Origin: Anaerolinea sp.
GTDB lineage: Bacteria; Chloroflexota; Limnocylindria; Limnocylindrales; CSP1-4
Length of the DNA stretch: 64,000 nt
NCBI GenBank assembly: GCA_013822395.1
Contig: PNKK01000003.1
Span: forward strand, 1 to 64,000
Reading direction: 5' to 3'
Within the stretch, counting starts at the first letter, position 1. Every line of letters begins with the position of its first letter. The position numbers and the translations under genes are program-made. Of the stretch, positions 7,661-21,619 are shown one piece after another. The notes below the pieces were generated by a model. It was not told the DNA's origin, made no database searches, and was given only the letters and a program-made list of their open reading frames with translations.

Positions 7661-7736
7661 TCGTCCCGGGGGTTTGGCCGGATCAGGGCGCGCCTGGTCG
7701 TCCCGGGCGTCTGGCCGGATCAGGGGCCGCGCCTGG
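7661..7736. repeat. Two tandem imperfect ~38-bp repeats (TCGTCCCGGGSGTYTGGCCGGATCAGGG..CGCGCCTGG)
   Basis: Units 7661-7697 and 7698-7736 nearly identical by eye. Confidence 0.75.
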
Positions 7737-7882
7737 TCGATCCATCGACCATCCGACGAAGGAGCACGCCCGGGTGGACCAAACGCGGCGCTTCCGCCCC
7801 GGATTGGTCGATCGATGCGCCAATTGAACAAAGGAAGGGGCTCGGCCACTGCCACGTTCGTCGCATGGTCGATCCATGGACC
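7735..7882. repeat. Three dispersed inverted-repeat units of the GGTCGATCCATSGACC type
   Basis: GGTCGATCCATCGACC 7735-7750; GGTCGATCGATGCGCC 7806-7821; GGTCGATCCATGGACC 7867-7882. Confidence 0.6.
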
Positions 7883-8160
7883 AGCCGAACAGCCTGGGCC
7901 GGTCGGCGAGGCGAGGCGAGGCACCTCCTGACGAGGCAAGCGCCAGCGCGTGTGGCACGGCCCGGCCCGGCACGGCCCGGCGGCACGCTCGCGGGACAGC
8001 CCGGCGTGGACCGAAGCGGTGTCAATGGCCGCGGCGAGTCGAAGCCGGCGATCGCGCCGGCAGCACCCTGGTGACCGGCATCCAAGTTGCGATGCAGCCC
8101 CAGATGACCGCGCGGTAAGCGCGTCGCTGTAGGGTTCCGATGTCCCCGCCGGCGGCCACT

Positions 8161-8284: not shown

Positions 8285-8443
8285 GTGAACAAGGTCCTGT
8301 TGACCGGCCGCCTCACGCGGGACCCGGAGATGCGCGCGCTCGCCTCCGGGAAGCACGTCACGCAGTTCAGCGTGGCGACAAACGAGTATGCCGGCAACGG
8401 CAAGGAGCGTCCCGAGTACCACAACATCGTCACCTGGGATTAG
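8285..8443 (+). pseudogene. ssb: Single-stranded DNA-binding protein, 5' fragment (interrupted by integrated element; new stop TAG at 8441-8443)
   Basis: GTG start: NKVLLTGRLTRDPEMRALASGKHVTQFSVATNEYAGNGKERPEYHNIVTWD then stop; the missing part lies at 20511-20799. Confidence 0.93.
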
Positions 8444-8460
8444 CGTCCACTTGGTCGCAC
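8433..8460. promoter_or_regulatory. attL junction (core 8433-8439; element-side arm to 8460)
   Basis: Switch from ssb sequence to element sequence immediately after CCTGGGA; arm pairs with the right-end arm. Confidence 0.82.
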
Positions 8461-9014
8461 TATCGGCTTAGGCTCTCGAACCAGCCCTGGGCGACACCGC
8501 TGACGATCCCGCTAATGACGGCGACGATGAGCACACCAAGCGCAGCCGCGATCCGCCCGCGGGTCGTCCCGATCAACCACCGCAGAAACACGACAAGCTG
8601 CCCGAGCCAGAACAAGGGGCTCGTAAGCCGGTAAAGCTCGTCGCGCGACACCGGTCGCGTTGGTCCGTCCTCGACGTCTGCACGCATCCTTCCAATCGCC
8701 ATGTCGAGGTGCTGGATGGCCATGCCCGCCATCGCGTTGTAGGACGGGTGGCCGGGGCTCCCGATCGTGTCGCGCACAACGTCTGTGCTGGCAATGCCGC
8801 CGAACTGTGTCATCTGCGCGATGCCGTAGCGCGCGATGACCTTGTAGAGGCGTCCGTATTCCTGGGCGAGTAGCGCGGACTCGGTGCCGATGCGTTGCTG
8901 CGCGCGATCATCGGTCGGAACGAAGCGGATCACGTTGTCCCGGACGAAGTTCGCGTACTCGACGAGCCTGTTTCGGAACGCGACGACACGCTCCAGGTCC
9001 GCGCTGGTCGCCAC
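8460..9014 (-). CDS. Hypothetical protein with C-terminal transmembrane helix, adjacent to MTase/nuclease fusion
   Basis: 184 aa; hydrophobic C-terminus IAAALGVLIVAVISGIVSGV; starts immediately after the stop of the MTase fusion gene. Confidence 0.7.
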   Translation of the reverse strand: MATSADLERVVAFRNRLVEYANFVRDNVIRFVPTDDRAQQRIGTESALLAQEYGRLYKVIARYGIAQMTQFGGIASTDVVRDTIGSPGHPSYNAMAGMAIQHLDMAIGRMRADVEDGPTRPVSRDELYRLTSPLFWLGQLVVFLRWLIGTTRGRIAAALGVLIVAVISGIVSGVAQGWFESLSR

Positions 9015-9017
9015 GAC

Positions 9018-10712
9018 CTACTCCTCGTCGTCCTCGACGGGCTCCTCGTCATCGAAGGCGTCGTCGGCGGATGTCATGGCCGCGGCGGCCGCGCCGAGGG
9101 CCATGCTCTCAAGTGAGAGTTGGTCGGCGGGCTTCACATACCGCTTCGCCTTCATGTAGGCCGAGTGCGCCGACGCAGGGATATCGGGCTTCTTCTTGTC
9201 CTCGAGGATCTCGCGGAACGTGAGGAACTGGATCTTCGGGAAGGAGCGCTGCCAGAGGCCAGACACGTAGCTGCCCGCCGTGTCGCGCTCGGTCCTCATC
9301 GGGCCAGTCGGCTCCTCCAGCGTCACGAAGATGCCCATCGCGGCCTTCTCCCGGTCGACGCTGTTCTTGAGGTCGGCGATGTCGTTCCTCTGGACCTTGC
9401 CGGTCTTCACGCTGACGATGATCGTCTCCAGCCGCCCGTTCTCCTCCGTGAACGTGATCTTCCCGTCCATCCCGGCATCCGCGCCCATCTTGACCTCGTC
9501 CCCGCCGATGGGGGCGGCGCCGATGAGCGACAGCGCGAGGGCCTGCGCCTTGAACCGGCCGCGTGGCGTGTCGATGAGCTGACGGACGCCCTCGACCTCC
9601 TTCGGCAGACCCTCGATCTCGATGTCCTTGAGGCCGAACACGTCTTGGAGCCGCGCCCGCATGACCGCGATGGCGAGGTACGAGACGTCCATCCCGATCC
9701 ACTTGCGGGCTGAGGCCTGCGCCGCGACGAGCGCGGTCCCGCAGCCGCAGAAGGGGTCGAGGACGACATCGCCCGGGTTCGTCGCCGACTCGATGATCCG
9801 CTCCAACAGGGCGAGCGGCTTCTGCGTCGGCCAGTTCAGCTTCTCCTTCGAGGAGTTGTTGAGCTTGTCGATGTCCCACACGTTGTCGATGAAGGCGCCA
9901 CTCGCGAGGGCCTCGTCGAGGTACCGCTTGATGCGCTGACCTTTGCCACGGTCAGACAGGACGTACTCACGACCGTCCTCGTCCACGCGGACCTTCTGCT
10001 TGCGGACCTTGACGTACTCCTCCTTCGACGCCCACGGGCGCGAGTAGGAGTTGAAGACCTGCTGCTCCACGCCGTCCTTCGCGTAGAACAGGATCGTGTC
10101 CGACCGGCTCTCGAACTTCCCGCGCAGCTTCTTGTTCCAGCCCGTGTAGTGCCAGACGATCTCGTTCCGGAACTGCTTCGCGCCGAAGATCGCGTCCATC
10201 ATCACGCGGAGGTAGCTATTCGCCACCTCATTGACGTGGAGAAAGATCGACCCGCTCGGCTTCAAGACCCGACGAAGCTCGACGAGCCGGACGGTCATCT
10301 CGACGAGGTAGGCGAACATCTGGTTCGGACCGAGCGCCTGCCGCATCGCGGCGATCAAGCCGCTGACCTGGACCGGGACGGCGCCGCCATGAAGCCCAGT
10401 GTTCGTCAGATAGGTGTAGTGCTCCTCGGCCCGGGGCCCCCAGTGCCAGATGTCTTCGAAGGCGACGATCTGCGCGTCGCTCTTCCGACCCGACTCGTCC
10501 TCGAAGATCAGGTTGTAGTTGCGGTTCGAGTTGAACGGCGGGTCGAGGTAGATCAGGTCGACCGAGTCGGGCGGGAGCCAGCCGTCGCGCAACAAGTCGA
10601 GGTTGTCGCCCGAGTAGAGGATGTTCGTCCGGAGGCCAGGCGGCGTCGGCGTCGCGATGGCGGCGGGGATGGCGGTCGCGGTGATCGCTGCGGACTTCAC
10701 TCGGGTCGGCAT
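9018..10712 (-). CDS. Site-specific DNA methyltransferase fused to a PD-(D/E)XK/Mrr-like nuclease-like domain
   Basis: IYLDPPFNSNRNYN, WPTQKPLALLERIIESATNPGDVVLDPFCGCGTALVAAQ; then GADAGMDGKITF....IIVSVKTGKVQRNDIADLKN. Confidence 0.88.
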   Translation of the reverse strand: MPTRVKSAAITATAIPAAIATPTPPGLRTNILYSGDNLDLLRDGWLPPDSVDLIYLDPPFNSNRNYNLIFEDESGRKSDAQIVAFEDIWHWGPRAEEHYTYLTNTGLHGGAVPVQVSGLIAAMRQALGPNQMFAYLVEMTVRLVELRRVLKPSGSIFLHVNEVANSYLRVMMDAIFGAKQFRNEIVWHYTGWNKKLRGKFESRSDTILFYAKDGVEQQVFNSYSRPWASKEEYVKVRKQKVRVDEDGREYVLSDRGKGQRIKRYLDEALASGAFIDNVWDIDKLNNSSKEKLNWPTQKPLALLERIIESATNPGDVVLDPFCGCGTALVAAQASARKWIGMDVSYLAIAVMRARLQDVFGLKDIEIEGLPKEVEGVRQLIDTPRGRFKAQALALSLIGAAPIGGDEVKMGADAGMDGKITFTEENGRLETIIVSVKTGKVQRNDIADLKNSVDREKAAMGIFVTLEEPTGPMRTERDTAGSYVSGLWQRSFPKIQFLTFREILEDKKKPDIPASAHSAYMKAKRYVKPADQLSLESMALGAAAAAMTSADDAFDDEEPVEDDEE

Positions 10713-10891
10713 GGGCACCTCCGCCAAGAGGGTACCACGCACCACGCACCCTTGGCGGAATGGGCCGCGACGCCCCGGACTGGACTGGTCGGGCGAGCCG
10801 AGATCGAGCGTCCGGGCGCGGAGCGCGGCCCGGTGACGGATCCTACGGGTCCCCGCTTACCCGACACTTACAGGCTCCGAGAGGGCATGCG

Positions 10892-10897
10892 TTATAA
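10892..10897 (+). promoter_or_regulatory. Candidate -10 (TTATAA) for the rightward element operon
   Basis: AT-rich hexamer in a high-GC divergent intergenic region 38 nt before ATG 10935; TTACAG at -35-like distance. Confidence 0.3.
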
Positions 10898-10934
10898 GTG
10901 GATCGACACGCACGCCGACCGATCCGAGGGGACG

Positions 10935-11177
10935 ATGACCGAACCGACAACGACATGTAGCCACGGGCTGGACAAGGCCTTTCGTGGGATGCGCACGATC
11001 GCGCTGTCCATCGACACGGTGACCTTCGAGTGCCCGACCTGCGGCGCGCAGCAGATCGCGCTGCGCTGCGCCGGGATCACGAAGTCGGGTGAGCGCTGCC
11101 GCGTCGCCGCCACCAACGGCGCGACCGCGTGCTTCCGCCACCGCCGGAACGTCGCGGTCGCGGAGGTCGCCCGATGA
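10935..11177 (+). CDS. Small Cys/His-rich putative zinc-binding protein
   Basis: FECPTCGAQQIALRCAGITKSGERCRVAATNGATACFRH; ATGA overlap with next ORF. Confidence 0.72.
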   Translation: MTEPTTTCSHGLDKAFRGMRTIALSIDTVTFECPTCGAQQIALRCAGITKSGERCRVAATNGATACFRHRRNVAVAEVAR

Positions 11178-11353
11178 GTGAGCCGCGCTGCGACCGTCGG
11201 TACAACGAGGTCCACGAGGACTACATCCTCGTCACCTGCGAGTGCGGGCTCCAGTGGACTCGTCGCCGGTGCGACGCCACGACGCTCGTCGGGAACCGAT
11301 GCCGACACGGGCTCAGGGAGGGCCGCTGCCCCGCGCACGGCGACCGGCCGTGA
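11174..11353 (+). CDS. Small Cys/His-rich putative zinc-binding protein
   Basis: VTCECGLQWTRRRCDATTLVGNRCRHGLREGRCPAH; overlaps neighbours ATGA/GTGA. Confidence 0.72.
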   Translation: MSEPRCDRRYNEVHEDYILVTCECGLQWTRRRCDATTLVGNRCRHGLREGRCPAHGDRP

Positions 11354-13149
11354 AGATCTCCCTCACGCCGCGGGCTCGCTACGCCGCGCTCGTCGAGCGG
11401 CTCGAAGCGGCGAGCGGTGCCGCCGCGGACATGTACGGCTGCCCGTCGTGCGGCAGCCAGGACAACCTCCACGTCTGGCTGGACGACAAGGGGCTCGGCG
11501 TCAAGTGCTTCACCGTCGGGTGCGCCGTGCAGGGTGTCGCGTCGCTCGAGGCGGCACTCGACGCCTACGAGGGCACGTCCGAGGACGCGCCGGAGCCACC
11601 GGGGACGCCCGCGGACTTCGTCGTGACGGACGACGCGCTCGACAACCTCGCTCGCTACTGCGGCGTCGAGAGGTCAGCGGTCGAGGGGCTACCGGTCGAG
11701 GACGGGGGCAAGGGCGAGTACGTGGTCGTGTTCCCGTCCGGGGCGCGGAAGCGGCGCCACTGGACGGGGCGCGCCAAGTACACCTGGGATGCCGACGTGA
11801 AGCCGCGCCCGGTCTGGCCCGTGGACGCACAAATGCCCGAGGAGGCGTGGTTCACCGAGGGCGAGACGGACTGCATCGTCCTGCGATCGCTCGGGATCGC
11901 GGCCTACTCGCTCGGCTCGGCCAGCGACTCGGCGGGCGTCGAGGTCTGGGAGGCGCTGCGATCCCGCGGGCTCAAGCGGGCCGTCATCGCGGGCGACGCC
12001 GACGAGGCAGGTCGTGAGGCCACCGCCAAGCGGATGAGGGACGCGCTGGCCGCGGGCCTGCGCGTCGCGTCCGTAGTCCCGCCCGGCTACGACCCGCTCA
12101 CCGGCGCTCACAAGGACTGGCGAGCGTGGCACCTCGACGGCGAGACGGACGTCCCGGAGCCCACGGGGACGGGCGTGGTCCTGACGATGGACGAGTACCT
12201 CGCAGCCCACGAGGGCGATCGCGTCGAGTGGGCCGTCGAGGGCATCGCCGCATTCGGGACCGTCTCGATGCTCGCGGGTCCGATGAAGGGCGGGAAGACG
12301 ACGCTGATGGAGAACGCCTTCCGGCTCGTCGGCGGGACCGAGGACGCCTTCCTCGGCCGCTGGTCGGTCGCTGAGGGCTTGGAGGCCGCCCTGTTCACCG
12401 AGGAGGGCGCGATCACCGTCCGCCAGAACATGGGGCACCTGCCCATCCACGTCGTGTCGCGCCGCGACCGCATCCCGTCGCGGTGGTCGCTCGCGGAGGC
12501 CGTCTCCGAGGCGCTCGACTGGGCGAGCGAGCGGCCGCGGGCACTCGTCGTGTTCGATACCTACGACAAGTGGGCGGGGATCAAGGACGAGAACGCCGTC
12601 GGCGAGAACGTCGCGGCGATCGAGACGTTCTACGCGCTCGCGGAGGCCGGCGCCGCCGTCCTGCTCGCGCACCACAGCCGCAAGGGCGGAGGCGAGTACG
12701 GCGAGGGCATCCGCGGGTCGGGAGCGATCCTCGGCGCGGTGGACCACGCGGTGGAGCTGAAGTACGTGTCGCCCACCTCGGACCGGCGCCACCTGGAGAT
12801 GCACGGGCGGCTGGTCGAGAACTCGCGGCGGCTGCTCGACTTCGACCGCGAGACGATGACGTACTCGCTCGTGGACGAGGCCGACGAGTACGCCGACGAC
12901 ATGCTCGCGAAGGCGTCCCTCGTGCCCTCGAAGGCTGAGGACCCGGACGGCGTGAACAACGCGGCGCTCAACGCCCTTTGGGACTCGAAGGACGGGAAGC
13001 GCACGCGAGACAAGCTGCTGGAGATGGGCTACCTCGTCCGGTCGGACGAGCTGGTCAAGGTCGGGCGCGGGCAGGAGTGGCGCTACTGGAGGGCCACGCT
13101 GCCTGTGATCAAGTTCACGCGGCCGTCGGAGGCCACCGATGGACAGTAG
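11350..13149 (+). CDS. Primase-helicase (Zn-finger + TOPRIM-like + RecA/RepA-like ATPase)
   Basis: YGCPSCGSQDNLHVWLDDKGLGVKCFTVGC; WFTEGETDCIVLRSLG; MLAGPMKGGKTTLMENAF Walker A; ALVVFDTYDKW Walker B; GTGA overlap start. Confidence 0.87.
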   Translation: MKISLTPRARYAALVERLEAASGAAADMYGCPSCGSQDNLHVWLDDKGLGVKCFTVGCAVQGVASLEAALDAYEGTSEDAPEPPGTPADFVVTDDALDNLARYCGVERSAVEGLPVEDGGKGEYVVVFPSGARKRRHWTGRAKYTWDADVKPRPVWPVDAQMPEEAWFTEGETDCIVLRSLGIAAYSLGSASDSAGVEVWEALRSRGLKRAVIAGDADEAGREATAKRMRDALAAGLRVASVVPPGYDPLTGAHKDWRAWHLDGETDVPEPTGTGVVLTMDEYLAAHEGDRVEWAVEGIAAFGTVSMLAGPMKGGKTTLMENAFRLVGGTEDAFLGRWSVAEGLEAALFTEEGAITVRQNMGHLPIHVVSRRDRIPSRWSLAEAVSEALDWASERPRALVVFDTYDKWAGIKDENAVGENVAAIETFYALAEAGAAVLLAHHSRKGGGEYGEGIRGSGAILGAVDHAVELKYVSPTSDRRHLEMHGRLVENSRRLLDFDRETMTYSLVDEADEYADDMLAKASLVPSKAEDPDGVNNAALNALWDSKDGKRTRDKLLEMGYLVRSDELVKVGRGQEWRYWRATLPVIKFTRPSEATDGQ

Positions 13150-13377
13150 GACAACCGAAGGACAACCGATGGACAGCGCACTGTCCTTCGGTCGAGGACG
13201 GCCGGGGCGACGCCGCCTGAAAGGCGTCGCCACGTACGAGGGACCGATGGACATCGACTCGACGTATACCCCTGTCCATCGGTCCATCGGTCATCGAGAG
13301 GAGGATATGAGCACGAACGAGAACGATCACCCCGGGACCCACGATGCCCGACCGATGGACACGACCTGTCCTTCGGT
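13135..13377. repeat. Iteron-like array: nine copies of ACCGAWGGACA in both orientations
   Basis: Forward: 13135-13146, 13154-13165, 13165-13176, 13243-13254, 13351-13362; inverted: 13181-13192, 13272-13283, 13283-13291 (short), 13366-13377. Confidence 0.9.
13206..13231. repeat. 9-bp perfect hairpin GGCGACGCC-GCCTGAAA-GGCGTCGCC within the iteron region
   Basis: Direct reading of inverted repeat. Confidence 0.75.
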
Positions 13378-13389
13378 CCGGCGTACTGC

Positions 13390-13412
13390 GAGGGGTAGGC
13401 CCCTCTCTTTTT
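13390..13412 (+). terminator. Rho-independent terminator candidate
   Basis: GAGGGG-TAGG-CCCCTC followed by TCTTTTT. Confidence 0.65.
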
Positions 13413-13746
13413 CGCGGGTAGTTGCGTACTTGCGCAACCACGCAAGGGGTACGTCCGTGCGAGGAGCCGAGTCAGGCGGCTTCGCACGCATCTCCGCCTC
13501 TCTCCGTGGTGCCCTGTCGTGTCGATCGTCGTCCGTGCGATCGTCGCGGCTCTCCGTGGCTCCTACCGCGGCTCCGTGCACCGTGGCGCACGCTGCCTCG
13601 ACGGGTGAAGGTGGACTGTCCACGTCGGACCGCGATGCCTGTGGAGGCGGCCAGGTAGGCGCCTCCGGGCGGCCTGCTACTTGGCCTCGCACCGAGCCGC
13701 TCGCCTGCTCGCGAGGCGGCCGCGTCGAGACCTCCGGGGTGTCGGC

Positions 13747-14139
13747 ATGAGCGGCCAGTTCGTCCGACCCAAGCAGCGGCCGCAGCGTCGGACCATCTCG
13801 GGCCAGGGCTTCGCGGGCGGGTCCTTCGAGCGGGTCCCGGACAGGGGCCGCCACGGCCTGTCGCGGCAGGAACTGGGCGTCCTCTTGCGCGAGCAAGGGA
13901 ACCGGTGCGCGATCTGCGGGACCTACGAGTGGGGCACCCTCGGCCCGATGGTCGATCACGACCACGAGCTCGCCAAGCAGCACGGGCACAACGAGTACAA
14001 GGGCTGTCGGCGATGCGTTCGCCAACTGTGCTGTGGGCGCTGTAATACCTTGCTCGGCAACGCGCAGGACGACCCCGAGATCCTTCGGCAGGCGGCCGCC
14101 TACCTCGACCACTTCAACGCCCGTCGCGGGGTGTCCTGA
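13747..14139 (+). CDS. Recombination endonuclease VII family protein
   Basis: GNRCAICG...MVDHDHELAKQHGHNEYKGCRRCVRQLCCGRCNTLLGNAQDDPEIL. Confidence 0.88.
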   Translation: MSGQFVRPKQRPQRRTISGQGFAGGSFERVPDRGRHGLSRQELGVLLREQGNRCAICGTYEWGTLGPMVDHDHELAKQHGHNEYKGCRRCVRQLCCGRCNTLLGNAQDDPEILRQAAAYLDHFNARRGVS

Positions 14140-14140
14140 C

Positions 14141-15100
14141 GTGCCGCGGGTCTGCGTCATCTGCACCTCCGGGCTGGCACCGGCGGCCGAGAAGCTCGTC
14201 GGCGAGGGTCGCTCGATGCGGTCGGTCGCGGCGAACCTCGGGCTCTCCTACGACGCCCTCAAGCGGCACATGCAGCACGTCGCCCGGCGCGTCCAGCAGG
14301 CCCCCGCGCCGTCGCGCGCTACGTCGCGCCCGTCGCGCGGTACGGGCGCTTCGACCCCGGCCGCGCCGGTCCCGGACGACCCGTGCGAGACGTTCGAGCT
14401 GGCCTTCGGCAGCCCGCCGATGGACCACCAGCGCGAGTACCTGACGGAGACGGCGGACACGTGCTTCCTGAAGGGGCGCCAGGTTGGCGCGACGCAGGCC
14501 GCCGCGGGGCTCGCCATCCACGTCGCGCGGTCGGCGCCGGGGAAGCTCGCGGCGATCATCTCGCCCTCGATGAAGCAGAGCACCGAGGTCACCCAGCGCG
14601 CCCGCGTCGGGCTCTGGGACCTCGGCGAGCGGCTCGTGCAGGACAGCACGTCGCTCATCCGGCTGGAGAACGGGTCCCGGATCCTCTCGCTGCCCGGCAC
14701 GGCGCGAGCGGTGCGCGGCTACTCGGCCGACCTGCTCATCCTCGACGAGGCCGCGTGGATCACGGACGAGACGTGGACGGCGGCGCGCCCCATCACGAGC
14801 GCGACCCGCGGCCGGACGATCGTCCAGTCCACGCCGGGCGTCCCGGTCGGGTGGTTCTGGGAGCTGACCCGCGACGTCCCCGAGGGCTGGCACGAGATGC
14901 GGGTGACGTCCGAGCAGGCGCCGACCGTGGACCCCGAGTTCCTCGCGCGCGAGAAGGCGCGGCTCGACCCGCACCTCTACCTCCAGGAGTACGCCGGGGT
15001 GTTCGCCTCGGTCGGGTCCTCGGCCCGCTGGTTCCCCGAGGACGAGTACGACGCCAAGGTCAACAAGAAGTTCGGCGCGTGGGGCGCCGAGGAGGGCTGA
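14141..15100 (+). CDS. Phage terminase large subunit, ATPase part (with N-terminal HTH-like segment)
   Basis: GTG start; SMRSVAANLGLSYDALKRHM; FLKGRQVGATQAAA Walker A-like; ADLLILDEAAW Walker B; QSTPG coupling motif. Confidence 0.82.
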   Translation: MPRVCVICTSGLAPAAEKLVGEGRSMRSVAANLGLSYDALKRHMQHVARRVQQAPAPSRATSRPSRGTGASTPAAPVPDDPCETFELAFGSPPMDHQREYLTETADTCFLKGRQVGATQAAAGLAIHVARSAPGKLAAIISPSMKQSTEVTQRARVGLWDLGERLVQDSTSLIRLENGSRILSLPGTARAVRGYSADLLILDEAAWITDETWTAARPITSATRGRTIVQSTPGVPVGWFWELTRDVPEGWHEMRVTSEQAPTVDPEFLAREKARLDPHLYLQEYAGVFASVGSSARWFPEDEYDAKVNKKFGAWGAEEG

Positions 15101-15795
15101 TGAACACCACAGTTGCCGCGGCGAACAGTCGCGGCAGGGTCTCCGTCGTAGCGCTGGAGACCATCGAGCGCAGCGGGCTCCTGAAGCCCGTGAGCGTCGT
15201 GCGCTACACGCGACAGGTCCCCGCGTCCGCGGGCCCGGACGAGGCGCGGGAGACGGTCTTGGAGGCGTGCCGGGTGATCCTGGCCGACCCCGAGAACCGG
15301 GACGGCGACCACCCGCGCGTCGTCGTGTCGAGCACCGCCTACGGGAGCGCGCTCTACGAGATGCTCTACGAGGACGGCAGGACGGGCCGCGTCCGGCCGT
15401 TGATGCCCCGCAAGCCGCTGGGCATCAGTAGCTACGTGACGTCGCTCGACCCGCGCGTCGAGAAGGTCGCGCCGAACCGGCTCGCCGGCGCGCTCTACAC
15501 GGCCTTCAAGTCGGGTCGGGTCGAGTTCGCCGACGGCTTGACGAAGCTGCGCGCCCAGATGGGCGCCTTTGTCCCGGTCGAGACCAAGTCGGGCTCGCTC
15601 GCCTTCGGCAACGAGGACATGAGCGACTACGACCACGCGGTCGTCGCGCTCATGCTCGCGGTCATCGCGGCGGGCAACCGCGGCTACGGCGAGTACCGCT
15701 ACGAGGACAGCAGCGGCGACGTCTGGCTCTCGAAGGCGATGGCCGTCGCTCGTCGCGGCGGGTCCGAGGGCTTCACGTTCGGAGCCCGGCCGTGA
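15100..15795 (+). CDS. Terminase nuclease-domain-like protein (split C-terminal half)
   Basis: Adjacent to ATPase ORF with overlapping stop/start; ALYTAFKSGRVEFADGLTKLRAQM...DYDHAVVALMLAVIA resembles terminase RNase H-like C-termini. Confidence 0.6.
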   Translation: MNTTVAAANSRGRVSVVALETIERSGLLKPVSVVRYTRQVPASAGPDEARETVLEACRVILADPENRDGDHPRVVVSSTAYGSALYEMLYEDGRTGRVRPLMPRKPLGISSYVTSLDPRVEKVAPNRLAGALYTAFKSGRVEFADGLTKLRAQMGAFVPVETKSGSLAFGNEDMSDYDHAVVALMLAVIAAGNRGYGEYRYEDSSGDVWLSKAMAVARRGGSEGFTFGARP

Positions 15796-15995
15796 TCGGG
15801 TTCGTGTACTTCGAGGACCCGGCCGACCTCGAAGCATGGCTCGCGTACCGGCCCGTCCCGGCGGCCGTCGCACTCTGCGCCCTGAGCGCCGACGTGGACG
15901 TCCCGGCCGCGGCCACCCCCACCACCACAACGGAACCCCGGCCGCGATCGCTGCTCGATCGCATCAAGACGCTCGTCGGGAGGCTCCGTGCCTGA
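15792..15995 (+). CDS. Hypothetical small protein
   Basis: GTG start overlapping previous stop; 67 aa. Confidence 0.5.
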   Translation: MIGFVYFEDPADLEAWLAYRPVPAAVALCALSADVDVPAAATPTTTTEPRPRSLLDRIKTLVGRLRA

Positions 15996-16785
15996 CCTCG
16001 ACACCACCCAGTACGGCGCACGGACGATCCGTCGCATGGACACCGCAATCAAGACAAGGAGCACCATGAGCAAGCATCGACCGCTCTACGACAAGGCCAT
16101 CAACGCGCTGGCCGACCACATCGTCAAGCCGGGGCAGATGCTCCGGGACCTCGAGGCGAAGCGGGAGCAGTACCCGGAGACCTTCTACGACCAGGAGCGC
16201 CAGCGGCTCATCCGCTGGGCGCGCGACCACGACTCGGCCGTCATGGGGGCCATGAACGACTACCTCGGCGCGATGGGAGCGGAGGCCAACAAGCTCCGGG
16301 TGCAGGCCGACGCCGACCGGCCCGCCGCCGACCGCACGGCCGAGATGATGGAGCGGCAGCAGCTCCTCGCCTCCGGCGTCCGCGCGGGCGACCTGCTCGC
16401 GCAGGCCGAAGCGGCGCTGGAGGCCGACCGCCCGCGTCGCGCCGCGTTCCTCGTGGACGTGGCCCGCTCGATGGGCGGAGTCGCCCTCGGCGACCTTCCC
16501 AACCGCGTCGATGACGCGCTGGACGAGGTGGACGAGAAGCGATCGCAGGCTCGGGCCATCGAGGACGAGGCCGAGGAGAACTACCGCGAGCTTGAGGTCC
16601 TGCGCCTCCGCGCACTGGCGGCGGCCGGGGTCGGCCTCAACCACGACGGCGGCGCGGGCACCGGCACGCAGGAGGCGCTCGTCCGGGCGAACATCGCGCG
16701 GAAGCTCGCGGCGTTCCACGCGGGGGGCGACTTCTCGGACCCGAAGGTCGAGGAGGCGACGGGCGCGCCGTCGCTCGTCTCGTGA
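15988..16785 (+). CDS. Hypothetical Ala/Glu-rich helical protein
   Basis: 265 aa, charged helical sequence; operon overlap with neighbours; start could be later. Confidence 0.6.
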   Translation: MPDLDTTQYGARTIRRMDTAIKTRSTMSKHRPLYDKAINALADHIVKPGQMLRDLEAKREQYPETFYDQERQRLIRWARDHDSAVMGAMNDYLGAMGAEANKLRVQADADRPAADRTAEMMERQQLLASGVRAGDLLAQAEAALEADRPRRAAFLVDVARSMGGVALGDLPNRVDDALDEVDEKRSQARAIEDEAEENYRELEVLRLRALAAAGVGLNHDGGAGTGTQEALVRANIARKLAAFHAGGDFSDPKVEEATGAPSLVS

Positions 16786-17063
16786 CCGCCTTCGACTGGA
16801 CGGACCGGCTCCGCCGCCCCGTGACCGAGTACCGCCGGACCTGTCGCCGCTGCGGCGTGGTCCGGTACGTCCCGGTCGCGATCGCGACGGCCAAGCCGCA
16901 GAAGGCGTCGCGCCTCGCGGGCTGGCTGACGCCGGTAGTGGGCCGGAGGCGCCAGCAGGTCAACGCCGAACGGTCGCTCATCGCTGACCACAACGCCCGG
17001 ATCGCCGAGGAGCGGCGTTGTCGCTCGTGCGGCTCCGAGAGCTACGACGAGGAGGAGGCATGA
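16782..17063 (+). CDS. Zinc-ribbon-like small protein
   Basis: RTCRRCGVVRYV ... ERRCRSCGSESYDEEEA. Confidence 0.65.
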   Translation: MTAFDWTDRLRRPVTEYRRTCRRCGVVRYVPVAIATAKPQKASRLAGWLTPVVGRRRQQVNAERSLIADHNARIAEERRCRSCGSESYDEEEA

Positions 17064-17284
17064 CACCCGAGGAGCAGGCGGCGGCGATCATCGCCGACCC
17101 CGCGTGGAGCTTCACGGACAACCCCACGTTGGCGATCGCCCACGCATCGACCCGCGCGGCCACCGCGCAGCGCGAGGGCAACACGACCCGCGCCCGCTAC
17201 TGGACCTCCGTGGGCCTCGCCCTGTGCGAGGCGGCGGGCGTCGAGCCGGGCCAGGTGCTGGTCAACCTCCGGGACGGCCAGTAG
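17060..17284 (+). CDS. Hypothetical small protein
   Basis: 74 aa; ATGA overlap with upstream ORF. Confidence 0.55.
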   Translation: MTPEEQAAAIIADPAWSFTDNPTLAIAHASTRAATAQREGNTTRARYWTSVGLALCEAAGVEPGQVLVNLRDGQ

Positions 17285-17627
17285 CAACGATCGACGCGAG
17301 GCACGGAACTCGATACCGTCGCCTCGTCGTTGACGCCCCGGAAGTCCTGGGGCGCGACGTTCCCTTCGGGGCAACGTTGCCAACGGCGGGTGAGTCGCGG
17401 CGGCGCCGTCGGGATCACGTCCAGACCGATCATCGGGCAGCCGATGTGGACGCCCGGCGGCGTTGCTGTTCCCGGTCCACTACGAGGGCGCCCACGACGT
17501 CGGGCGCGTTCGTCGTCGCGCGCGCTGCCGCGATCGCTCTCGGTGGCCCCTACGCGCTCAGGCTGTGCCTCCGACGGGACCTTCGGACCGTATCCGCGTG
17601 CCGCTGGCGTATGCGACGCTGGCGCGC

Positions 17628-18635
17628 ATGGGAGACGTCCGAGAGCGCATCGCGAACCACGACCCGAAGGACTGCGACGCCTGCTGGGAGTTCAGGGACC
17701 GGCGGTGGCGGAACACCTGGACCAAGAAGGCCGGTGAGGCTCACTACCGCGACGGTCTGGTGCGCCACGTTCGGGTGTTCGCAGGTCGGGCGGTAGGTCG
17801 CCACCTCTCCTACCCCGAGGACGTGGCGGCGATGGACGAGTTCGTGGGCCGCGGCGAGAAGAGAGCGGCGGCGATCGCATCTCGACCTACCGAGGCGCCG
17901 GCCTGGGTGCCGGACGACATGAAACCGCTCTGGCGTTGGCTGGACTACGACGAGGAGATCATCCCGACGCACGTTCTGCTCGAAGACGGTCGCAGCTCGT
18001 TGGCGGTCCCGGAGCTGGAGATCCCCGAAGACCTCGAAGTCCGTCCCGGCCATGACGCCACCACGTGCCCCGTCTGCGTCTACTGGGCGCGCGCCTGCGT
18101 CTGTGTCCTCCCGAACATCGAGGACCTCGAACGGCAGTGGGTCAAGCGACGGCCAGACGACCACATCTGGAGCGGCATCGACGACGCGGACCCGACCCCG
18201 GCGGCCACCGAGGAGCAGCGCGCCTTCTGGCGCGAGTCGTTCGAGCACACGTCGCGCGTGATCGAGCACGTCTTCGCGGTTCGCCCAAAGGGCGAGGACG
18301 CGCTGACCTGGCACGGCCGAGTCCTGCGCGCTGCCGCTCCTGACGACGAAACGGCGATGGACAACTTGCGATGGAGCGAGTGGAATAAGGGTCGCCGGGA
18401 ACGAGGCGGCTCCTACAAGAAGGCTCGGAAGGACGAGCCGCCCCCTGCGCATCTGTACCGGGACGGCGTACCACCCATCGGCGGGGGCTACAGCTCCGGA
18501 GGCAACCGCCTGCTCGTGAAGTACCTGCGGACGCAAGGGCTCGATTGGGCCGAGGGGACGCGGTACGCCGAGAACCTGCCCGTCGAGCTGATCCGCCACG
18601 CACCGGCCTTCCTACGGAAGCCCGCTCGACACTGA
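17628..18635 (+). CDS. Hypothetical protein with CxxC pairs (orphan)
   Basis: 335 aa from MGDVRERIANHDPKDCDACWEF; TCPVCVYWARACVC. Confidence 0.6.
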   Translation: MGDVRERIANHDPKDCDACWEFRDRRWRNTWTKKAGEAHYRDGLVRHVRVFAGRAVGRHLSYPEDVAAMDEFVGRGEKRAAAIASRPTEAPAWVPDDMKPLWRWLDYDEEIIPTHVLLEDGRSSLAVPELEIPEDLEVRPGHDATTCPVCVYWARACVCVLPNIEDLERQWVKRRPDDHIWSGIDDADPTPAATEEQRAFWRESFEHTSRVIEHVFAVRPKGEDALTWHGRVLRAAAPDDETAMDNLRWSEWNKGRRERGGSYKKARKDEPPPAHLYRDGVPPIGGGYSSGGNRLLVKYLRTQGLDWAEGTRYAENLPVELIRHAPAFLRKPARH

Positions 18636-18686
18636 GGCGGGCCCGTCCGCTGGGGGATAGCGAACGAGCCCGTGAGGTCGAGCGTA

Positions 18687-18965
18687 TCAGGAGGCAGTCG
18701 GGTCGAGCGGCGCCTCGTCGGCCTTGAGCGCGACGACCTTTCCGCGGGGCGGGCGCTTGGCGTTGGTCGTGCGCGGCGATCGCGCTGCGGTGGTCGCCTT
18801 CGTGGCCTTCCTGGCCGTGGCCCGCTTGGCCTCCGCGTGCGCCTTGACATGAGCAGCACACCACGTCCATCCGGGCTTCCCGACGCGCTGGTCGCAGTCG
18901 TAGAGCTTCGCGGCGTTGCGGTGGCGGCAGATCCCCTCGGCCGGGCGGGTGGTCGTGGCCTTCAT
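18687..18965 (-). CDS. Small basic Cys/His protein
   Basis: MKATTTRPAEGICRHRNAAKLYDCDQRVGKPGWTWCAAHVKAH..., Lys/Arg-rich tail. Confidence 0.6.
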   Translation of the reverse strand: MKATTTRPAEGICRHRNAAKLYDCDQRVGKPGWTWCAAHVKAHAEAKRATARKATKATTAARSPRTTNAKRPPRGKVVALKADEAPLDPTAS

Positions 18966-19152
18966 CGCGTGTTCCCTTTCGTCTCGGTCGGCGCGTCCGT
19001 CGCGCCGGTCGAGTCGATAGGAACGAGCCGGTCCGGCAATGTCCAATGCTGCGGCGACTTCGTCGTAGGAGCCTCCGAGAGCCCGCCCAGCATGGCGCGC
19101 GACGTTCGACGCGACGATGCGGCGCGGGGCGCTCTCGGTGGCCCGGAGCGCG

Positions 19153-20454
19153 TCAGGCGGCGTCGTCCTCGTCGTCGCCGCGCATCGCCGGATCGCGCCA
19201 CTCGAAGGTCATTGCCGGGACCCACTTCGACGGGCCCCGGTACGCCTTCTCGCTCATGTCGACCTCGACGTGCGAGAACAGGCGGCGGAGGTAGGCGTTG
19301 ACCTTGGCGGGGTCGTCGTGCTCGATGTCGGGCGGCATGGTCAAGAGCTTGATCCAATGGACGGCGCTCAGCTTCGACTCTTCCTCGGCGATGCTCGTCA
19401 GGCGCACGTCGCGCTCGGCCTTGTCGTAGAGCCCGTCCTCGAAGTTCACGAGGACCCGCCGCCGCTTCTCCGCGAGGCGCCGGAGCTCGGCCTCGTCGGC
19501 GGCCGTGCCCTTCTGCATCCGTCGGATCGACACGAGCGCTCGCTCGGCCTCGGCCTTCACGACGGGCAGGAGCTTCGTCTCGTTCACCCAGCCGCGAGCG
19601 TGCGGGACCGTGCGGGCTCGCGAGCAGGCGTAGCGCACATCGCCGTGCCGCTTGTTGTACGAGCCCGTGAGGAACGTGCTCGCCTTCGAGCCGACCCGGA
19701 CGCCGCGGGCCTCGCAGGTGGAGCACCGGACGAGCCCGGAGAACCGGAACGATCGCTTCCCGGCGGGCGCGCCCCGACCGGAGGTCGGGAGCACTTCGTT
19801 CGGCGCCTCGCGCTGGATGATCGAGCGAACGACGGTTCCCGACCACGCGGCGCCACGGACGCGACACGGGACGCCCTGCTCATTGAGCGACCGCGCCGCG
19901 CCGTCGTAGGACCCACGCTCGCGGAAGGCGTCGAGCACGATCGTGACGTCCTCGCCCGGCCGCTGGCCGTAGGCAGGCTGGCCGGGACCGTCCCAACCGT
20001 CGTCGCGCGCCCGCTTCGCCGCGAAGGCGTCCTTGACTCGCTCGCTGGCGACGTCCGCCTCGAACTGCGCGAGCGACGCGAGGATGTTGCTCGTGAGCTT
20101 CCCGGTCGCGGTCGAGGTGTCGATGTGGTCCCGGTCCACGCGGACGCGGATCTTGCGCTTGTCGCAAAGCTCGAAGAAGTCGGCGAGCTGGGAGACGGAC
20201 CGGGCGAACCGCGACAGCGAGTAGGCGTAGACCCCGGTAGCGACGCCGTCCTCCACCGCGCGCAGCAACTCGTCCCACCCAGGGCGCCTCTCTCGCCCCT
20301 TGCGGCCCGAGATGTCGAGGTCGGACAGGATCACGACGTCCGCGTGCCCGTCGGCGGATGCGAGGCGCCTGATGGCCTCCTCCTGCATCTCGGGAGAGAG
20401 CATCCTTGCGGCGTCGTGGACGACGGACTTCCTGATGTAGCCGTAGGCGGTCAT
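19153..20454 (-). CDS. int: Serine recombinase / integrase
   Basis: TAYGYIRKS N-terminus, SDLDISGRKG-, YSLSRFARS, ASLAQFEADVASERVK; recombinase and zinc-ribbon-like (CSTC...C) segments; ATG at 20454 lies 50 bp from the core. Confidence 0.93.
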   Translation of the reverse strand: MTAYGYIRKSVVHDAARMLSPEMQEEAIRRLASADGHADVVILSDLDISGRKGRERRPGWDELLRAVEDGVATGVYAYSLSRFARSVSQLADFFELCDKRKIRVRVDRDHIDTSTATGKLTSNILASLAQFEADVASERVKDAFAAKRARDDGWDGPGQPAYGQRPGEDVTIVLDAFRERGSYDGAARSLNEQGVPCRVRGAAWSGTVVRSIIQREAPNEVLPTSGRGAPAGKRSFRFSGLVRCSTCEARGVRVGSKASTFLTGSYNKRHGDVRYACSRARTVPHARGWVNETKLLPVVKAEAERALVSIRRMQKGTAADEAELRRLAEKRRRVLVNFEDGLYDKAERDVRLTSIAEEESKLSAVHWIKLLTMPPDIEHDDPAKVNAYLRRLFSHVEVDMSEKAYRGPSKWVPAMTFEWRDPAMRGDDEDDAA

Positions 20455-20481
20455 CGGTCGGGCCTCGTGACGGATTAGCGA

Positions 20482-20510
20482 GTAATACCAAGTATACGTC
20501 AATCCTGGGA
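20482..20510. promoter_or_regulatory. attR junction (element-side arm GTAATACCAAGTATACGTCAAT + core CCTGGGA)
   Basis: Junction to ssb 3' half; arm is inverted-repeat related to attL element arm. Confidence 0.82.
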
Positions 20511-20799
20511 CCGGCTCGCGGAGATCTGTGGGCGGTACCTCGGCAAGGGCCAGCAGGTGGCGCTCGAGGGTCGGATCCAGACCCGTACCTGGGACGACGA
20601 CAAGGGTGCCCGGCACTGGAAGACGGAGATCGTGGCGAGCTCCGTCGAGATGCTCTCGGGCCGGCGCAAGAAGGACTACGCGGCCGAGTCGGCGGCGGAC
20701 GGCCTCGAGGCACAGGCGACGCGCTTCGAGGGCACGTCGGACGCCGACGCGGACGACGTTTCGGCCGACGACCCCATCCCCGAGGCGGCGGCCGCCTGA
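20511..20799 (+). pseudogene. ssb: Single-stranded DNA-binding protein, 3' fragment
   Basis: Frame reads RLAEICGRYLGKGQQVALEGRIQTRTWDDDKGARHWKTEIVASSVEMLSGRRK...DPIPEAAAA*. Confidence 0.92.
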
Positions 20800-20960: not shown

Positions 20961-21209
20961 ATGATGCAGCGCACCCAGATCGCCCTCGACTCGGCCGAGC
21001 ATCGACGCGCCAGGCGGCGCGCCGCCGAACTTGGAATTTCGCTCGCCGAGTACGTCCGGCGCCTCGTGCGACAGGACCTCGAGGGCCCGGTGATCAATGG
21101 TGACCCAGCGAGCCTCTTCGCACTCGGCGACTCGGGCGGGTCGGATGTCTCGACCGCCAAGGATGCGTACATCGCCGAGGCGGTCGCCAGCGCTCGCCGA
21201 TCACGATGA
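20961..21209 (+). CDS. vapB: VapB/CopG-like antitoxin
   Basis: RTQIALDSAEHRRARRRAAELGISLAEYVRRLV ribbon-helix-helix style; 4-bp overlap with PIN gene. Confidence 0.75.
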   Translation: MMQRTQIALDSAEHRRARRRAAELGISLAEYVRRLVRQDLEGPVINGDPASLFALGDSGGSDVSTAKDAYIAEAVASARRSR

Positions 21210-21619
21210 CCTTGTTCGTTGACTCGTCGGCCTTCTACGCCGCGGCCGATGTCGGCGACGCGAGCCATGGCCGCGCAACAAGGCTTCTCAGCTCGGGCGA
21301 GTCGTTGGTGACAAGCGACCACGTGCTCGTCGAGTCATGGCTGTTGATCCGCCACCGATTGGGACGAAGCGCCGCCGAGCGGTTCTGGGCGGCGATCCGC
21401 GGTGGGGCCGCCGCACTCGAGCCGGTCGGTTCGGCTGACCTGGAGTCGGCCTGGATCATCGGCCAGGCCTTCGCCGACCAGGATCTCTCCATCGTCGACC
21501 GGACGAGCTTCGCGGTGATGGAGCGACTCGGTGTCCTGCGAGCCGCGACGTTCGACGCCGACTTCGCCGTGTATCGCTTCGGATCCCGCCGGGAGCGCGC
21601 GTTCGAGATACCCGGCTGA
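21206..21619 (+). CDS. vapC: PIN-domain toxin (VapC-like)
   Basis: MTLFVDSSAFYAAAD; DQDLSIVDRTSFAVMERLG; FDADF. Confidence 0.85.
   Translation: MTLFVDSSAFYAAADVGDASHGRATRLLSSGESLVTSDHVLVESWLLIRHRLGRSAAERFWAAIRGGAAALEPVGSADLESAWIIGQAFADQDLSIVDRTSFAVMERLGVLRAATFDADFAVYRFGSRRERAFEIPG

Follow-up and report, generated by a model that had tools for sequence, protein, structure and literature searches.

The 12,071-bp (~12 kb) element that interrupts the ssb gene of an uncultured Chloroflexota host in the window, i.e., the whole stretch of 64,000 nucleotides analyzed here, is probably an integrated phage satellite with its own DNA-packaging motor. It would borrow both heads and tails from a helper phage. 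The integrase, the att sites, and the lack of a full virion gene set suggest that it fits a phage satellite in the broad sense. The integration site, the gene content, and the conservation of the modules are read from the sequence; the features are as follows (coordinates in the window):

8285–8443, plus strand: host ssb, 5′ part (PF00436, 1.4e-14)
8433–8439: att core CCTGGGA at the left junction, a 7-bp direct repeat matching the right end
8460–9014, minus strand: 184-aa protein, hydrophobic C-terminus (by eye), ORF without a family match
9018–10712, minus strand: N6/N4 DNA methyltransferase with an Mrr-like C-terminal domain (PF01555, 1.2e-43; PF22722, 2e-10; PF04471, 1e-5)
10938–11177, plus strand: small Cys-rich ORF, weak (weak zinc-pocket match, 0.0045)
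11174–11353, plus strand: small Cys-rich ORF without a family match
11350–13149, plus strand: Toprim and AAA_25 primase-helicase (PF13481, 8e-13; PF13155, 2.5e-6; phrog_239, 2.5e-11)
13135–13377: iteron array, nine copies of ACCGAWGGAC in both orientations (motif count)
13747–14139, plus strand: endonuclease VII-type HNH nuclease (PF02945, 3e-16; phrog_2914, 1.5e-20)
14141–15100, plus strand: TerS-like N-terminal domain fused to the TerL ATPase (PF03237, 1.5e-13; phrog_7579, 2e-30)
15100–15795, plus strand: TerL nuclease subunit (phrog_27743, 3.3e-4, weak; alignments)
15792–15995, plus strand: 67-aa ORF (ORF list; Pfam and PHROGs scans)
16066–16785, plus strand: 239-aa protein, predicted to be all-helical (AF2 pLDDT 79.6)
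16782–17063, plus strand: 93-aa zinc-ribbon-like ORF (weak match)
17060–17284, plus strand: 74-aa ORF (phrog_3969, 0.0036)
17598–18635, plus strand: 345-aa Cys-rich ORF without a family match (AF2 pLDDT 37)
18687–18965, minus strand: 92-aa Cys/His-rich ORF (Pfam and PHROGs scans)
19153–20454, minus strand: large serine integrase, 433 aa (PF00239, 4.6e-29; phrog_95, 5e-56)
20504–20510: att core CCTGGGA at the right junction, a 7-bp direct repeat matching the left end
20506–20799, plus strand: host ssb, 3′ part (PF00436, 1e-5 and 1.3e-12)

The first-pass annotation placed an element at 8433–20510 between att sites, and this placement is borne out by the CCTGGGA repeats, the rejoined SSB, and the empty site in relatives. 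In-silico removal of one CCTGGGA together with the interior yields an intact SSB of 147 aa, and an undisrupted ssb is present in the same-genus genomes G010 (84% nucleotide identity) and G004 (87% nucleotide identity). Most same-genus genomes searched carry two ssb genes, and hence one of them is plausibly dispensable. In the host genome (70% complete), the sole other ssb found sits inside a prophage. A search for a close copy of the element elsewhere found none.

The integrase and the primase-helicase named in the same annotation are confirmed by their HMM matches (see the list above), and the iterons are real: ACCGAWGGAC occurs ten times in 64 kb relative to 0.5 expected occurrences, and nine of the ten copies fall within 13135–13377. 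This array is a candidate replication origin. For the predicted "MTase-nuclease", the methyltransferase assignment is upheld by PF01555, but the nuclease half is not. Mrr nucleases carry the motif Q/ExK; the C-terminus of the methyltransferase has SVK at this position, both in the element copy and in its homolog. Nuclease activity is therefore improbable, and the Mrr-like half is probably inactive as a nuclease. The reported lack of virion genes agrees with our scans: no ORF of the element matches portal, capsid, protease, tail, or lysis families in Pfam or PHROGs, and one structure search, with the 239-aa protein, gave no Foldseek match at E ≤ 0.001. For the ORFs at 15988–18635, the structural match to virion proteins that the first-pass annotation named as a refutation was not found, with the caveat that the model of the 345-aa ORF (pLDDT 37) is unusable.

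The terminase is present, although its layout has to be corrected to two ORFs, the ATPase and the nuclease, overlapping by one base. The TerS-like part of the ATPase ORF corresponds to a separate gene in phage G090 (18026–18199, matching profile positions 1–58). This gene stands just upstream of endoVII-terL, and it is read as TerS because of this position; by homology to it, we read the N-terminal domain of the ATPase ORF as TerS. The second ORF aligns with the gene that follows terL both in phages and in the sister element discussed below. Moreover, phrog_27743, which it matches weakly, is also matched at 4e-38 by the terminase nuclease of G440:C155, alongside TerL families. Together, the alignments and this match indicate that the 15100–15795 ORF is the terminase nuclease. 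In this element, the conserved motif-II Asp of the nuclease is replaced by Ser, while the other aligned homologs retain Asp, and packaging competence of this particular copy is uncertain for this reason. The idea that motif I had been lost in satellites only was rejected, as related phages are likewise degenerate there. The identification of endoVII stands, with a likelier role than the resolution function first assigned to it: the gene adjoins terL in phages G053, G090, and L055–L057 as well as in G095:C81, the sister element, and given this linkage it is better read as a member of the packaging cassette.

The sister element, G095:C81 (PMXR01000064.1; Chloroflexi MAG fen_1026), comes from the same family as the host genome. 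Its 7.8-kb island lies exactly at the pheS/pheT junction (end of pheS, start of pheT) with a duplicated 12-bp core, GGAGCAGTTCCG, and the empty junction is seen in relatives. Its gene order matches that of the ssb element: serine integrase, primase-helicase, iterons, endoVII, TerS-TerL fusion, and nuclease, accompanied by a few small proteins; no virion gene was found in the island. The iterons, seven copies of CGGGACAC, occupy the same place as the array of the ssb element. The two TerLs are 52 to 55% identical and form one clade in the tree (support 98/99), separate from phages. By contrast, the serine integrases share only 27% identity, and no similarity between the primases was detected at the threshold used; the two islands are therefore not copies of one recent insertion.

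Outside both islands, the nearest TerLs belong to full siphophages, with the same endoVII-TerL-nuclease order and a terminase of ~50% identity. In phages G090:C51 and G053:C8, the order is endoVII, TerL, nuclease, portal, protease, capsid, and tape measure, and the IMG/VR contig L057 is laid out in the same way. Another phage contig, L055, has a related primase upstream of endoVII-TerL. The islands have the phage packaging cassette in common with these phages, minus all that comes after it. The viral-contig relatives were reached only with a TerL alignment as the query; viral-contig scans with single element proteins (TerL, the primase, the 239-aa protein, and the 345-aa protein) gave no matches.

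Virion-less integrase-terminase islands recur within the genus of the host and more widely in its class and phylum. One of them, G014:C145 of the same genus, encodes a serine integrase, a primase, a TerS-like protein, a methyltransferase, and a full-length TerL that belongs to another clade. The methyltransferase is 50% identical over 542 aa to that of the ssb element, and the primase is 57% identical to that of G095:C81. TerLs of the G014:C145 clade are also found in other virion-less integrase-terminase islands, namely G104:C85 and two that lie on partial contigs (G016:C84 and G100:C15), with a more distant relative in the island G161:C137; among the IMG/VR matches listed, this clade has only relatives of 29% or less. 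The virion-less G104:C85 island (10,271 bp) has 51-bp att repeats and a tyrosine integrase, while att repeats of G014:C145 and G142:C87 were searched for and not found. G142:C87 and four islands of G440, a genome of another family in the phylum, also count among the integrase-terminase islands; they carry a terminase, some with a tape-measure-like protein, and no capsid or portal was seen in them; the G440 genome has no Phage_portal match. A same-genus island of 10.6 kb bounded by tRNA-Arg, G003:C34, has a TerS-like gene without TerL. It also encodes a homolog of the 239-aa protein (8e-8 to 2e-8), detected by phmmer, which was used for the small-ORF comparison; single-sequence hhalign had given nothing usable. 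Rough dN/dS values, with strong GC bias, are 0.19 to 0.36 for island terL genes relative to 0.11 for a phage pair, and suggest that the island genes are under purifying selection where this is measurable; for the two sister terL genes, the value (0.58) is too saturated for use.

Collectively, the relatives strongly support the reading of the ssb element as a satellite. The earlier proposal of a satellite lineage that hijacks a helper phage gains support from the sister island, the TerL clade, and the other islands, with the hijacking itself as an inference; the "phage-plasmid remnant" offered beside it is without support. Homologous full-length phages, which the first-pass annotation regarded as potential evidence for a deletion remnant, do exist (G090:C51, G053:C8, and L057). 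It is conceivable that the element is a defective prophage, i.e., a serine-integrase siphophage in ssb that is decaying after deletion of its structural and lysis modules. The closeness of its terminase cassette to those of true siphophages, in sequence and in order, the primase of L055, and the missing Asp in the terminase nuclease are in keeping with this scenario. However, neither the ORFs nor the two att sites are disrupted, and TerL appears to be under purifying selection in other virion-less islands. Moreover, a simple deletion remnant is contradicted by G095:C81, which is independently integrated, bounded, and equally virion-less, with its own iterons, a sister TerL, and the same TerS-TerL fusion. 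We therefore regard a defective prophage as unlikely.

A complete small phage, or a cfPICI-like element, with a capsid and portal beyond recognition is considerably less plausible still. The 345-aa ORF, without a homolog and with its low-pLDDT model, leaves some room for it. Against this stand the coding capacity after the terminase, which is ~3 kb and consists of small ORFs throughout, the predicted all-helical nature of the 239-aa protein, and the G095:C81 island, where the space after the terminase holds only 126-aa and 205-aa proteins; in addition, the related phages have a portal and an HK97 capsid that are easily recognized. Equally improbable is an integrative element of non-viral nature, or a domesticated island, in which replication and terminase genes of phage type serve another use, e.g., a packaging-interfering defense: the methyltransferase and a terminase nuclease without a catalytic-type residue would suit it, but related islands show the same combination of integrase, replication gene, and terminase, and both sisters have iterons, which favors self-propagation.

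As for the satellite reading, the genome contains one complete-looking prophage, C2, with an integrase at 79.6 kb beside tRNA-SeC and a portal at 110 kb. C2 was considered as the helper and rejected, since it shares no more k-mers with the element than are found in host control DNA and its TerL is unrelated to that of the element. Its excision, replication, packaging, and transfer are inferred for the element as follows. Entry or induction of a helper siphophage would lead the integrase to excise the element, which would restore ssb. The primase-helicase would copy the element, starting at the iterons. The element terminase (endoVII/HNH, TerS-TerL, and nuclease) would pick element DNA and dock on the portal of the helper procapsid, and helper tails and lysis would result in the release of transducing particles. 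The methyltransferase may shield element DNA against restriction.

Satellites of the P4 type are small and integrated, with a primase-helicase and an iteron-type origin, and the element is likewise small and integrated, with a primase-helicase and iterons. None of its ORFs matches, in Pfam or PHROGs, the P4 genes for capsid size and helper activation (Sid, Psu, and Delta). P4 depends on the helper terminase for its packaging and uses Sid to resize capsids (PMC10690885). In SaPIs and classical PICIs, TerL comes from the helper, and the island contributes its own TerS or a modifier of TerS (PMC10690885). They resemble the element in island size, in the integrase and primase-replication genes, and, for some, in having their own TerS; the element differs in its own TerL ATPase and nuclease, its fused TerS-like domain, and its serine integrase. 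The gene set of the cfPICIs includes capsid, protease, portal, and connectors (PMC10690885). Like the element, they are integrated and combine replication genes with a packaging cassette that comprises HNH nuclease, TerS, and TerL, and endoVII beside terL parallels the HNH nuclease of their packaging module (PMC10690885). However, capsid, portal, and protease were not found in the ssb element with Pfam and PHROGs. The Mulch and Flayer satellites of Streptomyces phages also have TerS and TerL. In these satellites, portal and capsid genes are present and a primase is missing (PMC10690885); the ssb element shows the opposite pattern. PICMIs, for which a packaging motif suffices, carry int, alpA, and a primase (PMC10803314, PMC11389934). 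They are likewise small integrase-primase islands without virion genes; in contrast to their AlpA, DUF3987/DUF5906 primase, and fis site, the element has no AlpA match, a Toprim/AAA_25 primase, and the ssb site. Literature searches returned no report of phage satellites in Chloroflexota or of satellites with a serine integrase and a terminase.

We tentatively suggest that own-motor satellites, with an integrase, an origin, and a full terminase whose TerS is fused to TerL in one lineage, are a distinct class that is widespread in Chloroflexota and steals whole procapsids and tails. In this scenario, the G440 and G142 members might reset the length of the stolen tail, because they carry a short tape-measure-like protein. 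The well-known satellites either borrow the helper TerL or come equipped with a complete set of capsid genes, and a recurrent motor-only family would bridge both. If this is correct, integrase, primase, and terminase without a portal would provide a searchable signature for satellites of uncultured phyla, and terminase-portal compatibility as the basis of helper choice would become directly testable.

Within the genome that carries the element (G000), a complete-looking siphophage prophage lies at tRNA-SeC (contig C2, about 79,500-132,522; L229 and L166-L168) and encodes a portal and its own SSB. Considered as a candidate helper, this prophage shares DNA with the element at a level not above chance.

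Islands with all or part of a terminase are also present in other genomes. One Chloroflexota genome of another family, G440, has four related islands with a terminase (contigs C155, C180, C163 and C83; L194-L198). A short tape-measure-like protein (420-483 aa) is encoded in at least two of the four, and neither capsid nor portal was found in the islands bearing it. The contents of two further islands are as follows.

G003 (same genus as the element's host), contig C34, L225:5341-15950, 10.6 kb, TerS-only and bounded by tRNA-Arg: TerS-like gene, tyrosine integrase, replication initiator, methyltransferase
G142, contig C87, 40658-52837 (L246), without virion genes: tyrosine integrase, 723-aa tape-measure-like protein, TerL, RepA-like helicase

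Directly outside the element (20961-21619), a small ribbon-helix-helix-like ORF is followed by a PIN-like ORF; as judged by eye, the two may form a toxin-antitoxin pair of the VapBC type. The intergenic stretch 7661-7902, which lies upstream of the ssb region, holds direct (D8) and inverted (I2) repeats.

In the element's separate terminase nuclease (15100-15795), the motif-II position is occupied by Ser, whereas the other aligned homologs keep Asp. Judged from its sequence, this nuclease may be inactive.
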